Of a stretch of 64,000 nt of DNA, positions 4,380-47,639 are shown piece after piece. Each line of letters opens with the position of its first letter. Position 1 is the stretch's first letter. Location: contig JAJDYI010000035.1 in assembly GCA_022825235.1 (NCBI GenBank), positions 1-64,000 on the forward strand, written 5' to 3'. A program made the position numbers and the translations under genes. The DNA is from Alphaproteobacteria bacterium (GTDB taxonomy: Bacteria > Pseudomonadota > Alphaproteobacteria > TMED109). The notes under the pieces are model-generated. The model was not told where the DNA came from. It saw nothing but the letters and a program-made list of their open reading frames with translations, and did not search any database.

Positions 4380-4781
4380 GTGGCCGCGAGGGCGGTCAGG
4401 GCGGTGTTGTCGTCGCCCGCACTGGCTTACCCAGATGGGCATACTCTGTTGGGTGCGCTCGACTCCAACGATCCATCTATCTCGGACCAAGCAATCGCGT
4501 ACGTAACGGGAGTCCTTCATGGTTATCAAGTGTTCAATCCGACGTTCGACCAAGAGCGCGAGGAGAAAACGGTCGACCATTTGCTGCGCTGTGTAAACGT
4601 TCCCGACACTCTCACGTCCAGAGACATTGCAGCTGTCGTGCGTATCTGGTTGCGCCGTCAACCTCCAGAGATATTCCTTAGGGTTAAGGGGAAGGAAGAT
4701 CCGATTTCGCTCGACCCCCTAGAGCACCCAGCCCCGAACTTGGTGGTAACTGCACTAAGAGAAAGGTTCCCTTGCCATTAA
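4380..4781 (+). CDS. Rap1a/Tai-like immunity-family protein, possibly 5'-truncated
   Basis: A 133-residue product with the layout of the Rap1a/Tai domain: an early AIAYVTGVLHGYQ helix, a central CVNVPDTLTSRDIAAVVRIW segment and the closing ALRERFPC. Family members are small periplasmic proteins, some of which neutralise type VI amidase effectors. The only start in frame is a GTG at 4380, directly after the IS21-like repeats. The N-terminus then reads as a short, weak signal-like stretch ending ALA before YPDG. The original start and signal peptide may have been lost to the insertion. No effector gene lies nearby. Confidence 0.55.
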   Translation: MAARAVRAVLSSPALAYPDGHTLLGALDSNDPSISDQAIAYVTGVLHGYQVFNPTFDQEREEKTVDHLLRCVNVPDTLTSRDIAAVVRIWLRRQPPEIFLRVKGKEDPISLDPLEHPAPNLVVTALRERFPCH

Positions 4782-4859
4782 TTCGTGATTGTGACTCACC
4801 TCTATAATCCCCCTTCTGCCGGTGGAAATCAGGACAGGCATTGAGCTTAGGAGGGTAAG

Positions 4860-5081
4860 ATGACCGACACGCTGATCGACCGGAATCCGGACATCCTTGG
4901 CGGAACGCCGGTGTTTGCCGGGACCAGAGTCCCGGTGCGCATCCTGATGGAACACCTCGAAGCCGGCGACCGGCTGGAGGATTTTCTGGCCGACTACCCG
5001 ACGGTGTCGCGACACCAGGCTGTTGCGTTGCTGGAGCGCGCAACGACCATGCTGGTGTCCACCGATGAAGCTGCTGCTTGA
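4860..5081 (+). CDS. DUF433 antitoxin
   Basis: A 73-residue DUF433 protein, a VapB-like antitoxin family usually encoded just upstream of a DUF5615 PIN-type toxin. The family signature is clear: DRNPDILGGTPVFAGTRVPV (8-27) and then LEDFLADYPTVS. A strong ribosome site, GGAGG, sits 5 bases before the ATG. The last codons overlap the toxin start at 5065. The gene is intact while its partner is frameshifted, so it is probably an orphan antitoxin. Confidence 0.85.
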   Translation: MTDTLIDRNPDILGGTPVFAGTRVPVRILMEHLEAGDRLEDFLADYPTVSRHQAVALLERATTMLVSTDEAAA

Positions 5082-5390
5082 CGAATCGGTGCCGCGTCGC
5101 CTCGGTGCGACCTTTCCCGCACCATTCACGACACGCACGGTTCAGGAGATGGGTTGGGCAGGCACTGCTAACGGCCTATTGCTGTCGCTTGCCGCCCGCC
5201 ATGGTTTCGGGCCCTTGTCACCGTCGATCGGGGCATTGAGTATCAGCAGAGCCAGAGCACTCTTCCCATACCGATAGTCATCATGATTGCCGCGCGCAAT
5301 CGTCTGGAGGAATTGCAGCCGCTGGTTCCTCAGGTAGTGAACGTTCTGTCAGATGACCCGGAAGCTCGGATTTATCGAGTCCCGGAATGA
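5065..5390 (+). pseudogene. DUF5615 (PIN-like) toxin, frameshifted
   Basis: The ATG at 5065 lies inside the antitoxin gene. The product begins MKLLLDESVPRRLG, the normal start of DUF5615 PIN-like RNases, with the first acidic active-site residue in LLLDES. Near 5205-5210, at TTCGGGCCC, the frame is lost by a 1-base deletion. The next frame continues ALVTVDRGIEYQQ, with the expected TxDxG motif, to a TGA at 5388-5390. Joined, the two parts make about 108 residues, the usual size. In the genomic frame translation runs on to a stop at 5277 with unrelated residues, which removes the second active-site aspartate. Confidence 0.8.
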
Positions 5391-5528
5391 ACCAGCAGCG
5401 GCGGACCTCAAGGTGCCCGCGTGGCGGAACGCCAAATGTGGGGGGGATTGGGCGCTAGGGGCTGCTTCCGCAGGCCGAAGTACGCGGTGGCCTCAGCGGT
5501 CTGCCAATGGCCCTTGGTCATGTGCCCA

Positions 5529-5765
5529 CTATGACATCGCCGCGTACCAGTGATGATTCTCCTGCCAGCACTTGATCAGCCCGTCCTTGGCCAGTTTTTG
5601 TCCGACGACGCTCGCGACGGCCCGTGCGTCCGCCTCGCCGTACATCGTCATCCAGCCGAGTTGTTCCGCGATGCTGGACGTGTCCATCTTTTGGCCGCCG
5701 TTCTCCAGGAGCGCCTTCAAAAACTGTATTTCGAGGCTCGGCGATAGGCCGTCGGGTTGGTTCAT
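5529..5765 (-). CDS. Small winged-helix-like hypothetical protein
   Basis: A 78-residue protein that I do not recognise by name. Its composition looks like a compact winged helix: a first helix (LEIQFLKALLE), a second (TSSIAEQLGW), a recognition-type helix (ADARAVASVVGQKLAKDGLI) and a closing strand KCWQENHHWY. This suggests DNA binding, but no partner is encoded beside it. A TATAGT box on the minus strand (5815-5810) lies about 45 bases upstream with a weak -35. The ribosome site is weak. The 250 bases upstream, to 6015, hold no other gene that could be supported. Confidence 0.5.
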   Translation of the reverse strand: MNQPDGLSPSLEIQFLKALLENGGQKMDTSSIAEQLGWMTMYGEADARAVASVVGQKLAKDGLIKCWQENHHWYAAMS

Positions 5766-6015
5766 GGGTCACCGTGCCGGTCGTTCGGTAAACAGGTAGC
5801 GGAGTCGCCACTATAGTCCACCTGACGCGCTGTTGAAGGTAGCGCTGCTCTTCCAGACGCTGGATTGTGACAAAATGGCCCGGCGTCCTGACAACCGCCG
5901 GACGTCGCGAGGCAAGGTCAGCGAAGCAGGCATCAGACAGCGCAAGGTGCATCCCCGCCATTCGCTTGAACTGCGCAAGATCGTTTGTGGTTGCCCGGTC
6001 GTCTTGATTGGGTGA

Positions 6016-7038
6016 TCAGGTACGGCCGACCGCGGCTTCGCCGGTTTCCGCGAGTGCGCGTGCCAGCATCGCGGGATCCGCGTTACCGCCTGACAGTACG
6101 AGCAGCGCGGTCTTGTCGCGTAGCTCGATGCGCCCTGCCAGCGCTGCAGCCATGGCTGCCGCCCCACCCGGCTCCACGACCAATTTCAACCGCAGCAGCG
6201 AGAAGGCAATTGCCTCCAGCACCTCCGCGTCCGACACGACGAGCCCCGGCCCCAGGCACTTGGTTCCGACCTCGAAGGCGATGTCTCCCACCTGGGGCGG
6301 CAGGAGCGAATCACAGATCGTGGCGACTCCTTCATCGGCTGCCACGCGTCGGCCGTCGGCAAGTGAGCGCGCCATATCGTCATGGACTGCCGGCTCCACG
6401 CTGCGGACGTCGATGTCCGGGAATTCCGACCGCAGTCCGATCGTCACGCCGGACACAAGGCCGCCTCCGCCACACGGAACCAGGGCAATGTCGGGGATGA
6501 CGTCGCGCGCGCGCATCTGGTGCGCTGCCTCGAGGCCGGCCGTCCCCTGGCCGGCCACCACGAACGGGTCGTCGTACGGATGCACGAACGTCCCTCCGCG
6601 CTCACCGAGCACTTCGGTCCCCCGTGCCTCGCGCCCTTCGGTCTGGCGGTCGTAGAACACGATCTCTGCCCCGAAGTGCCGAACGCCGGCGACCTTGATG
6701 CGGGCAGCGTCATTCGGCATGACAATGGTCGCCGGCATCCCGAAGAGACGTGCCGCACACGCGACGCCCTGGGCATGATTTCCCGAGGACCAGGCCACGA
6801 CCCCCCCGGCACGGTCTTCAGCCGGTATCGCGGCAAGCCGGTTGTAGGCCCCCCGGAACTTGAACGATCCGGTCCGTTGCAGGCACTCGGGCTTGATCAG
6901 GACCCGCCCGCCGGTTCGCGCGTTGAGCGTGCCGGACTCCAGCAGGGGGGTCACCCGGGCGCGTCCCTGGATGATCCTGCTGGCCGCGACGATTTCGCTG
7001 CGCGAGACTCCTGCAATCCCGGCGTCTAGCGCGGGCAT
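6016..7038 (-). CDS. Serine/threonine dehydratase (PLP fold type II)
   Basis: Pyridoxal-phosphate enzyme of 340 residues that deaminates threonine or serine to the 2-oxo acid. The PLP lysine is K60 in TGSFKFRGA. The SSGNHAQG loop (84-91) and the glycine loop CGGGGLVSG, which binds the cofactor phosphate, are intact. There is no C-terminal ACT regulatory domain, so it resembles the catabolic, short form rather than IlvA. Some members of this group are serine racemases or hydroxyaspartate dehydratases, which sequence reading alone cannot separate. The ATG at 7038 overlaps the end of the upstream lytic transglycosylase gene by 13 bases; an ATG at 7056 is the alternative. Confidence 0.85.
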   Translation of the reverse strand: MPALDAGIAGVSRSEIVAASRIIQGRARVTPLLESGTLNARTGGRVLIKPECLQRTGSFKFRGAYNRLAAIPAEDRAGGVVAWSSGNHAQGVACAARLFGMPATIVMPNDAARIKVAGVRHFGAEIVFYDRQTEGREARGTEVLGERGGTFVHPYDDPFVVAGQGTAGLEAAHQMRARDVIPDIALVPCGGGGLVSGVTIGLRSEFPDIDVRSVEPAVHDDMARSLADGRRVAADEGVATICDSLLPPQVGDIAFEVGTKCLGPGLVVSDAEVLEAIAFSLLRLKLVVEPGGAAAMAAALAGRIELRDKTALLVLSGGNADPAMLARALAETGEAAVGRT

Positions 7039-44507: not shown

Positions 44508-45083
44508 TGACTCCCTGGAGAGGTTCACGCGCCGCCGTGGCCCGTGGCTGGATCACATATCGCTGCCGACTATCGTGTGATCGGCGGGGCGGGCTCGACA
44601 TGGGCCCGCGGGGCGCAGGGACAGGCACCTTAATCCTTGGCCCGCGCTGCGCTGGGGTTATACACAAAGCCGGACCGCCAAGTCGCCGCCGCGGGCTTCC
44701 CGGACGGCGGGTAACCCGGCCGCATGGTCGGCGGCCGGGGGCGACGCACCGCTGGCGGTGTGCCACATCAATGAGGCGGATTTCTCGCCTGTCGTCATCG
44801 GGCCGCCGCCCGCTCTCGACGACTTGCAGGCTTGCCGTCCGGCTTCCCGATACCACCCCGATACCGCATGGAGCGCCTCGGAAGCCCAGTGGCGACAGTC
44901 GGTTGGGACACCGGTCGCAGCCCGCGATCGCCACGTTGTCTCGGCAGTTAGTCAAACATATATCTCGTATATGCCTTTTGGCCGCACCCGCCGCACACGG
45001 TGGGGATGTCCAGTACTTGCGAGACCGTCGTCAGACGGTCTCCGGCATCGCAAACATTCAAGATCCTGTAAGGAGCTGAAGAC
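44508..45083 (+). promoter_or_regulatory. Upstream region of the bufferin operon with two dyads
   Basis: About 575 bases without a gene. Two dyads occur near the operon: CATATA-TCTCG-TATATG (44957-44973), and a perfect 9-bp repeat, GAGACCGTC (45021-45029) and GACGGTCTC (45034-45042), around GTCA. The second ends 41 bases before the bufA start and could be an operator or a leader hairpin. AGGAG (8 bases before the ATG) is the ribosome site. No ECF sigma or regulator gene is encoded nearby, and no standard promoter boxes were clear. Confidence 0.5.
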
Positions 45084-45353
45084 ATGGCTGTTCACAAACG
45101 TACTTCCGCCGCCGTCGTGGCGGGGGCATTGACCGCTCTTCTCGTTGCCGCGCCGGCCTCGACCGCGCTCGCCGCCGATGGTGACATGGAAAAATGCTAC
45201 GGCGTCGCCAAGGCCGGCCAGAATGACTGTGCGGCTGGCGAGGGCACGACCTGTCAGGGCACGTCGACCGTCGATGGTCAGAAGAATGCCTGGATTTACG
45301 TCCCGGCTGGCCTCTGCGAGAAACTGGTCGGCGGCAGCCTTGAGGAAGCCTGA
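45084..45353 (+). CDS. bufA1: Bufferin-type RiPP precursor (DUF2282)
   Basis: An 89-residue DUF2282 protein. An N-terminal signal peptide (about 1-30, ending TALA) precedes a core with four conserved cysteines: C38 in [11 protein letters not shown]49 in QNDCAAG, C57 in TTCQG and C78 in [10 protein letters not shown], with AWIYVPAG between the last two. This is the bufferin precursor pattern. In characterised members the MNIO enzyme BufB converts core cysteines to thiooxazole groups and the exported product binds copper. The usual maturation genes follow on the same strand. Use of Sec export for a modified peptide is a feature of the family. Confidence 0.9.
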
Positions 45354-45406
45354 TTCGTTCCGACTGATTCGCTGAAGCCCAGCTATCCGGACCGGGGCAG
45401 TCGCCC

Positions 45407-46351
45407 GTGCCTGACGCACCAGCCGTCCAGGCATCAGCACCTGCCTCGGACCGGCCTTTGCCGGTAAGCGCGGGAATCGGGCTCAAGGCCCAGTTCTATC
45501 AGGAGGTGCTGGACACCTCCCCGCCATTGGACTGGTTCGAGGTCCATCCCGAGAACTACATGGTCGAGGGCGGGCCCCCGCTTCGGTACCTCGAGGCCAT
45601 TCGCAGCAACTACCCTCTGTCCTTGCACGGGGTTGGCATGTCGCTCGGGTCTGTCGAACCCCCCGCACTCGATCACCTTGATCATCTTTCCGGCTTGATC
45701 GATCGGTTCGAGCCCTTCCTGGTGTCCGAACACCTGTCGTGGAGCCGGACCGAAGACGCCTTCCTCGCCGATCTTCTCCCCCTCCCGATGACCCGCGAGG
45801 CGCTGGCAACCGTATCGGCCAACGTGTGCCGGGCGCAGGACCACCTCGGCCGGGCGCTCCTCGTGGAGAATCCCTCGGCCTATCTCCAGTTCCGCGAACA
45901 GGAAATCCCGGAACCCGAATTCCTCAGCGAACTGGCCCGACGAACCGGATGCGGTCTGCTGCTGGACGTGAACAACCTCTTCGTGTCAGCGTGCAACCAG
46001 GGCTTCGACCCGATCGCCTGGGTGGACGCCTTCCATCTCGAAGCTGTCGAAGAGATCCATCTCGCCGGGCATGCCGTCGACCAGGCAAACGGACACAGCA
46101 TCCGCGTCGACGATCACGGGTCAGCGGTGCCGACGGGCGTCTGGGATCTCTACCGCACGGTCATTCGGCGCCGCGGGCCGACACCGACGCTGATCGAGCG
46201 GGACGCCAACCTCCCGCCGCTTGCGGATCTGGTTGCCGAGGCCCAGACGGCCGTTCGCGTCATGCGCGAGACGGTCGCCGACACCGGCGACGATCGATCC
46301 CGGCCGGTCGGGACAGGTGCGGCACCGGCCTCCTCGATCACAGCACCCTAG
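45407..46351 (+). CDS. bufB: MNIO-family (DUF692) peptide-modifying oxidase BufB
   Basis: Multinuclear non-heme iron-dependent oxidative enzyme of 314 residues with a TIM-barrel fold. Candidate iron ligands are conserved: H74 in SLHGVGMSLG, H109 in SEHLSW, E154 and N155 in LVENPSAYLQF, D187 and N189 in LLLDVNNLFVSACN, H218 in EIHLAGH, D236 and H237 in VDDHG, and E264 in LIERDANLP. It should modify cysteines of the DUF2282 precursor encoded 53 bases upstream. The GTG at 45407 is preceded by a GGGGC ribosome site. Residues 290-314 are a low-complexity tail. Confidence 0.9.
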   Translation: MPDAPAVQASAPASDRPLPVSAGIGLKAQFYQEVLDTSPPLDWFEVHPENYMVEGGPPLRYLEAIRSNYPLSLHGVGMSLGSVEPPALDHLDHLSGLIDRFEPFLVSEHLSWSRTEDAFLADLLPLPMTREALATVSANVCRAQDHLGRALLVENPSAYLQFREQEIPEPEFLSELARRTGCGLLLDVNNLFVSACNQGFDPIAWVDAFHLEAVEEIHLAGHAVDQANGHSIRVDDHGSAVPTGVWDLYRTVIRRRGPTPTLIERDANLPPLADLVAEAQTAVRVMRETVADTGDDRSRPVGTGAAPASSITAP

Positions 46352-46359
46352 CCTCGCTG

Positions 46360-47175
46360 TTGTCCTTTCTCGCCGAAGTCCAGTCGACCTTTCGCACCGC
46401 CATGGAACAAGGGGGTGACGAGGGAATAACGAGACTGCTCGCGCGGCCCTCCTCCGGCCCCGACATCACGACGCGGCTCGACATCTATCGGAACAACATC
46501 GCCTATGCGCTGGTGAGGGCACTGGAAGCGCTCTATCCCTCTCTTCGCCGGCTCATGGGCCAGGTGTTCTTTGAACAGATCGCCTCGGACTTCGCCCGAG
46601 CCCATCCCCCGCCCCATGGCCGTCTGGTCGAGTACGGGTTCGAGTTTCCGGGCTTTGTATCCGGTTATGAGGTGGCATCCGGCTACCCCTGGTTTGCCGA
46701 CGTGGCCCGGCTGGAAGTGGCCTGGCACCGTGCCTATGTCGCCGCGGAGGCGCCAAGCCTCCCAATCAGTGAACTCGGAGCCGTCCCGCCGGATCGGATG
46801 AGCATGATCGAGCTGGTCCTGCATCCGACCTGCCGATGGATGCAGTCGCGTTATCCGGTGTCCAAGCTGTGGCGGCTTGGCCGCGAGGAGAGCGAACCTG
46901 ATGGTCCCATCGAGGTTGAGGGCGGGCCCGAATGGCTTATGGTCATACGGCCGGAGGCGGAGGTCGAAGTACGGACGCTCTCGGAAGCCGGCTACCGGTT
47001 CGGACATGCGCTGAGCGAGGGACAGGTGTTGGGGGCGGCCTGGGAGGCCGCCTGCGATGTGGACCCGGACTTTGATCTCCAGGGGCACCTTGCAGGATTG
47101 TTTGCGGGCGGGACGTTTACCGACTATCGGCTCGCATCAGAGACATCTCATTCCCACGACGGAGACCGACCATGA
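46360..47175 (+). CDS. bufC: BufC-like DUF2063 partner protein
   Basis: A DUF2063 protein of 271 residues, the usual partner of MNIO enzymes, thought to bring the precursor peptide to the enzyme. Landmarks are TRLDIYRNNIAYALVRALEA, SLRRLMGQVFFEQIASDFAR and VARLEVAWHRAYVA. No ATG fits the family N-terminus; the TTG at 46360 gives LSFLAEVQSTFRTAMEQ, which resembles the family start, and ATG 46402 is the alternative. The open frame runs upstream to 45739 through bufB in another frame and is not protein-like there. It ends by overlapping doxX (ATGA). Confidence 0.85.
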   Translation: MSFLAEVQSTFRTAMEQGGDEGITRLLARPSSGPDITTRLDIYRNNIAYALVRALEALYPSLRRLMGQVFFEQIASDFARAHPPPHGRLVEYGFEFPGFVSGYEVASGYPWFADVARLEVAWHRAYVAAEAPSLPISELGAVPPDRMSMIELVLHPTCRWMQSRYPVSKLWRLGREESEPDGPIEVEGGPEWLMVIRPEAEVEVRTLSEAGYRFGHALSEGQVLGAAWEAACDVDPDFDLQGHLAGLFAGGTFTDYRLASETSHSHDGDRP

Positions 47176-47639
47176 GTGCACAAGCCAATGTCCTGAGGCA
47201 GATCGGCACGACCGTGAGCTGCGCGAACGCCGTGATGTCGCGCGTTCCTGACGGGTTGCTGCAGCTTCTCGCGCGGGTGGCAATTGCGCCGACGTTCTTT
47301 CGGTCGGGACAGGCAAAGATCAGCGGCTTCTCGGTCAACGACAGCACGGTCTTCCTGTTCGAGCACGAGTTCGGGATGCCGTTTCCCGTTCTCTCGGCTC
47401 ACCTCGCGGCGCTTGCGGAGAACATTCTTCCGGTCCTGCTGGTGGTCGGGTTCGCCACCAGGCTGTCGGCGCTGGCACTGTTCGTCATGACCATTGTCAT
47501 CCAGATCGTGGCGCCCCAGGGGTTCTGGACCTTCCACATTCTTTGGTTCGCTGTGCTGCTCTACGTTGTGGCGAAGGGTCCCGGACAGGTGTCGGTCGAT
47601 CACCTTATCGAACGAGCCTATCGGAACCGGACTGCGTAA
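47172..47639 (+). CDS. DoxX-family membrane protein
   Basis: A 155-residue polytopic membrane protein with about four hydrophobic segments and the DoxX hallmark LLARVAIAPTFFRSGQAKI followed by AHLAALAENILPVLLVVGF. DoxX proteins commonly close bufferin operons and may work in electron supply or in the membrane step, but the exact role is unsettled. It overlaps bufC by 4 bases, and it is the last gene of the operon; the next gene converges. Confidence 0.85.
   Translation: MSAQANVLRQIGTTVSCANAVMSRVPDGLLQLLARVAIAPTFFRSGQAKISGFSVNDSTVFLFEHEFGMPFPVLSAHLAALAENILPVLLVVGFATRLSALALFVMTIVIQIVAPQGFWTFHILWFAVLLYVVAKGPGQVSVDHLIERAYRNRTA

Follow-up and report, generated by a model that had tools for sequence, protein, structure and literature searches.

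Buf1 bufferin clusters are described in the literature as a core of four genes, encoding a precursor, an MNIO enzyme, a DUF2063 protein and a DoxX protein, and as the source of peptides carrying copper-binding thiooxazoles derived from cysteine (PMC12452194, PMC12668002). In Caulobacter crescentus, the cluster CC3254-CC3257 has the order DUF2282, DUF692/MNIO, DUF2063 and DoxX, and its control involves SigF, the anti-sigma factor NrsF and a promoter of the form GTAACC-N16-CGAA (PMC3511200). The gig operons of Legionella and Cupriavidus are also of the bufferin type and respond, in those organisms, to copper and gold (PMC5413113, PMC13192273); near that of Cupriavidus lie rpoQ and an anti-sigma gene (PMC13192273). 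The operon analyzed here resembles that of Caulobacter in gene order and the gig operons in kind. It differs from the former in its control region, where a structured leader RNA precedes bufA, and in the lack of both NrsF and a neighboring sigma factor gene; unlike in Cupriavidus, no regulator gene adjoins it.

The DNA analyzed (the window, 64,000 nucleotides of contig JAJDYI010000035.1, to which all coordinates refer unless a locus is named) belongs to an alphaproteobacterial genome of 3.85 Mb (GCA_022825235.1). The operon comprises four genes:

45084 to 45353, forward strand: bufA, Buf1 bufferin precursor of 89 amino acids with four cysteines
45407 to 46351, forward strand: bufB, MNIO bufferin maturase
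about 46360 to 47175, forward strand: bufC, DUF2063 partner protein (TTG start assumed; alternative ATG at 46402)
47172 to 47639, forward strand: bufD, DoxX family membrane protein

A preliminary description of the locus had called it a bufferin system in which a DUF2282 precursor with four cysteines is followed by MNIO, DUF2063 and DoxX genes. At the level of sequence, this is right: the order is canonical, and all families were recovered above their Pfam cut-offs, namely PF10048 (DUF2282) for BufA (92.8 bits; cut-off 22.4), PF05114 for BufB (339 bits), PF09836 for BufC (66 bits; cut-off 27.2) and PF07681 (DoxX) for BufD (65.8 bits; cut-off 23.6). BufB also matched the NCBIfam model MNIO_BufB (NF050167) with 370 bits, above the cut-off of 310, and its His, Glu, Asp and Asn metal-binding motifs line up with those of the solved MNIOs 3bww, 8hci and 7fc0. 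BufC is HvfC-like according to NCBIfam, with a score under the cut-off of that model, and BufD, the start of which overlaps the bufC stop (ATGA), matched the HvfX family with 72.6 bits, slightly below the cut-off of 80. Judged by eye, the N-terminus of BufA has typical n-, h- and AxA regions of the Sec type, with AxA cleavage after ALA, and the order of its cysteines is common to precursors of other Alphaproteobacteria (one such comparison comprised plus-strand loci only). By these criteria, bufABCD is a canonical, ordinary Buf1 cluster, and an operon of this kind is already known. Its role in copper handling is transferred from characterized homologs, according to which BufB and BufC would convert BufA into a thiooxazole-bearing peptide able to bind excess copper in the periplasm.

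Among named records, the genus is represented by uncultured MAGs. Of the other genus genomes examined, all six contained bufB and five the complete bufABCD, the remaining one (G003) being cut by a contig end; an apparent break in bufB of G004 is due to a stretch of N in its assembled sequence. In the other genera of the family, the genomes of which are smaller and often incomplete, neither bufB nor a DUF2282 match was found. Throughout the genus the operon is syntenic and has the same neighbors as far as the contigs extend, ABC permeases and a GST upstream and an amidohydrolase downstream, which agrees with the earlier statement that no regulator gene lies alongside. Between bufA and the GST gene, most of the genus shares the conserved stretch GGTTATACACA (44655-44670), possibly as part of the GST promoter on the opposite strand.

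Two dyads upstream of bufA had been proposed to form a local control site, and both are present as described: CATATA-N5-TATATG at 44957-44973, and a perfect 9-bp inverted repeat (arms GAGACCGTC/GACGGTCTC) 41 nt before the bufA ATG. In a single sequence, the occurrence of neither is clearly beyond chance; their significance comes from conservation. With up to two mismatches, the CATATA dyad is found at 8 places in the source genome, compared with 10 for the reversed control, and exactly only here; another perfect inverted repeat of 9 bp (CCCGGCCGC/GCGGCCGGG, 44715-44739) lies within the same 611 bases, ∼300 bases upstream. This second repeat is not conserved in distant members of the genus. For comparison, eight sequences of the genus were aligned, seven of which are distinct within the leader and which fall into approximately three groups. 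The features of the putative promoter are as follows:

44936 to 44941, forward strand: putative -35-like hexamer TTGTCT, from the alignment (four of six consensus matches; TGGTCA/G in relatives)
44953 to 44975, forward strand: conserved block CAAACATATATCTCGNNTATGCC, enclosing the CATATA dyad (44957-44973)
44959 to 44964, forward strand: putative -10-like hexamer TATATC, from the alignment (four of six consensus matches; 17 nt after the -35-like hexamer)

Each of the seven genus genomes has a single copy of the block (≤3 mismatches), always before bufA. In the alignment, 21 of 23 columns of the block do not vary, compared with a background of 35% (binomial P about 4e-8, with no correction for relatedness or for the choice of the block). 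Of the relatives, however, only the nearest (p16x60) retains the perfect 17-bp dyad; each of the other six sequences has one mismatch, because both variable positions sit in the right arm. Thus, the block is conserved, but not as a palindrome. Among 385 alphaproteobacterial genomes, matches without mismatch were confined to members of the genus, and five genomes outside of it matched at three mismatches, which is approximately the frequency of the reversed control. The idea of a CATATA palindrome maintained in related operons therefore did not hold, its perfect symmetry being lost in six of seven relatives and no instance being found outside the genus. As the operator of a regulon it was rejected, too: there is one exact site in the genome, near-matches are no commoner than those of the reversed control, and, once its flanks are included, each genus genome has one copy and the 385 genomes match at background level. 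The block rather fits a -10 element plus the first bases of the RNA, which would place the transcription start near A44971. A consensus promoter scan returned nothing at threshold, the proposed hexamers, with 8 of 12 consensus positions, being below that threshold.

Downstream of this putative start, the alignment supports a structured RNA:

44971 to 45048, forward strand: structured leader RNA, 78 nt (RNAalifold consensus, 26 pairs)
44971-44975 with 45044-45048, forward strand: P1, putative closing stem of 5 bp (ATGCC with GGCAT)
44979-44983 with 45008-45012, forward strand: P2a, leader helix stacked with P2b
44987-44993 with 44998-45004, forward strand: P2b, leader helix stacked with P2a
45021 to 45042, forward strand: P3, hairpin formed by the perfect 9-bp inverted repeat (arms 45021-45029 and 45034-45042)

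The alifold energy of the leader was −33.9 kcal/mol, compared with −11.3 ± 3.0 kcal/mol for 500 column shuffles, none of which was as low (z −7.7). In contrast, z was −2.4 for the antisense strand and between about −1.5 and +1.3 for flanking upstream and coding segments. When 8.4 kb of syntenic alignment were scanned in segments of 80 columns, the leader had the lowest z of all 162 segments (−6.4), compared with −3.8 for its own antisense and −2.7 for the next independent segment. Pairing was kept in 96.7% of 182 cells, versus 31–41% in controls with slid partners, and the covariation score was reached by none of 500 shuffles, although the number of two-sided pairs and of pair types, taken alone, was not above that of the shuffles. 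Variation in the stems includes many G-U pairs as well as two-sided changes, which affect a single pair in each of P2a, P2b and P3, three in all. Because the sequences form approximately three groups, few independent changes underlie these counts, and the two-sided changes may go back to as few as three events.

Within P3, 64 of 72 cells are Watson-Crick, 6 are G-U and 2 are mismatched; one pair changes in a compensatory manner from G-C to A-U, and G-U pairs occur at two others. With its compensatory and G-U changes, and with the sense strand folding better than the antisense, the 9-bp repeat is better read as an RNA stem within a larger leader. It is kept as a stem in relatives of the same genus and was not found outside of it. 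Thus, the preliminary description was supported in that a conserved local control site exists, whereas a DNA-dyad mechanism is not the best reading of it. P2 and P3 are the secure parts of the structure. P1 is invariant apart from one broken end pair, so that it rests on invariant bases, and for four sequences (G001, G002, G004 and G005) the fold without it was more stable by about 4.6 kcal/mol; P2 and P3 are possibly closed by it. Besides structure, sequence is also conserved within the leader (ATGCC, NTTTG and TCCGGCA). The invariant AUG at the putative start and the bufA ATG (44971-45084) lie 113 nt apart in seven of the eight sequences, despite compensating indels in between.

A covariance model of the leader found it once per genome in all seven genus genomes (80–98 bits), only before bufABCD, and also before bufA on one further contig. 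No credible copy was detected elsewhere, whether in 28 genomes representing the other genera of the order or among 385 genomes of the class; bufferin operons in Brevundimonas, Hyphomonas and other genera had none, nor did the second bufA of relatives. The best distant match (G031, 25.8 bits) lies antisense within a long coding ORF resembling a quinoprotein dehydrogenase and was judged to be due to chance. No Rfam family matched the leader, the sole match, below threshold, being a snoRNA inside bufA. From these searches, the leader seems to be unique to one genus. A literature search for bufferins and riboswitches yielded one paper mentioning both, separately, which is weak evidence of novelty as most subscription literature was outside its scope. 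We regard the leader as a new, apparently undescribed candidate control element, well supported in structure and so far putative in function.

How the leader might act on bufA involves the region following it:

45064 to 45075, forward strand: Shine-Dalgarno sequence AAGGAG (45070-45075) with preceding anti-Shine-Dalgarno TCCT, a putative hairpin

The motif TCCT-N3-AGGA is present in all aligned sequences except that of G003, and the Shine-Dalgarno bases were mostly paired in the models. The small hairpin TCCT-GTA-AGGA, invariant and weak, could possibly shield the Shine-Dalgarno sequence. In G003 (L030, near 900-1000), a deletion of ∼34 nt removes the usual bufA Shine-Dalgarno sequence and start codon, and its bufA would have to be translated from an earlier ATG, located where the leader ends. 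A transcription attenuator was rejected because a scan for a terminator after the leader found none.

If the leader were a passive 5′ stabilizer, or a constant tuner of translation which raises the precursor over the enzymes, no sensing would be involved. Stabilization of mRNAs by stable 5′-terminal hairpins is common, a RiPP precursor is required in excess of its enzymes, and neither a conserved alternative fold nor a terminator was found. On the other hand, the conservation of sequence besides structure exceeds what a generic stabilizer needs, and only one operon per genome has the leader. We consider this alternative possible, if doubtful; it overlaps with the favored account given below, since neither needs sensing. 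Alternatively, a metal-responsive regulator encoded elsewhere may bind the CATATA block, the 9-bp repeat, or both, as DNA operators, the RNA fold being incidental. The block is, in fact, the most conserved stretch, beyond the needs of a bare -10 element, overlaps the putative -10 to +1 region, which is a usual position for a repressor, and is specific to bufA in every genus genome. However, the loss of perfect symmetry described above and the G-U cells of the 9-bp repeat, compatible with an RNA stem but not with a symmetrical DNA site, argue against operators, as does the far better folding of the sense strand; furthermore, a single genomic site without a nearby regulator gene would be unusual. 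Operators therefore appear unlikely.

Control by an ECF sigma factor, as in Caulobacter, could be expected from the frequency of sigma and anti-sigma genes in Buf1 clusters (PMC12452194), and five of the seven genus genomes do contain an ECF gene, which in four of them adjoins an orphan bufA. However, the source genome and G006 have no ortholog of it (best own match 33% identity) and yet keep leader and block; therefore, this ECF factor cannot explain the features they share with the others, and the ECF gene was rejected as the regulator. SigF/NrsF control was rejected as NrsF (PF06532) was absent from all seven genus genomes, while the positive control was found in Caulobacter; nor was the SigF motif GTAACC-N16-CGAA seen when the sequence near bufA was read. 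An ECF factor thus has very little probability here. The orphan bufA of the four relatives (L068, about 4640-6098; L069, L070 and L071) has a nearly identical core and sits just before the ECF gene and a gene for a protein of 196 amino acids, which has no Pfam match and may be an anti-sigma factor; the source genome and G006 lack it, and G003 has the ECF gene without a second DUF2282 match. The invariant AUG at the putative +1 might also open a translated uORF controlling bufA in the manner of CruR in Bordetella (PMC9426467) or CutF in Rhodobacter (PMC9973294). Its frame is broken by indels between the groups, which differ in frame, length (30 to 118 codons) and sequence; two versions tested matched no Pfam family, and inspection by eye revealed in them none of the features of CruR and CutF (signal peptide, Cys motif, stalling motif). 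Moreover, substitutions between G001 and G004 alter codons while the stems are kept. A translated uORF was thus rejected and is scarcely credible.

The account we favor, and hold to be probably correct as a whole, is that the CATATA block contains the promoter of bufABCD, that transcription begins near A44971, and that the 5′-terminal 78 nt of the mRNA form the hairpins P2 and P3, possibly closed by P1. This leader would control the operon in cis, in place of the SigF/NrsF control of Caulobacter, and BufA would be matured to a copper-binding peptide. The likeliest routes for the leader are access to the bufA Shine-Dalgarno sequence, ∼21 nt downstream of it, or stabilization of the 5′ end. A more specific proposal, in which the leader acts as a riboswitch for a metal, perhaps copper, directly controls bufferin synthesis and replaces the sigma/anti-sigma pair used elsewhere, is quite improbable in our estimate. 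To our knowledge, no copper riboswitch has been established.

Among known systems, the leader of CutF-cutO in Rhodobacter capsulatus is similar in that a stem-loop of the mRNA there shields a ribosome-binding site and so controls a copper gene, likewise in an alphaproteobacterium (PMC9973294). CutF, however, requires a translated and exported sensor protein (PMC9973294), and no such conserved ORF exists here; the precedents for copper control at the RNA level, CutF (PMC9973294) and CruR (PMC9426467), both need a translated sensor protein. The leader also resembles metal riboswitches and other cis-regulatory RNAs in Rfam, being a compact element, either a pair of hairpins or a three-way junction, with which a metal-related message would begin; unlike these, it matches no Rfam family. 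Operator-like repeats noticed on a single sequence can thus prove to be RNA stems once relatives are compared, and the conserved RNA before one bufferin operon of one genus is a concrete candidate for control of a copper defense peptide at the level of RNA.
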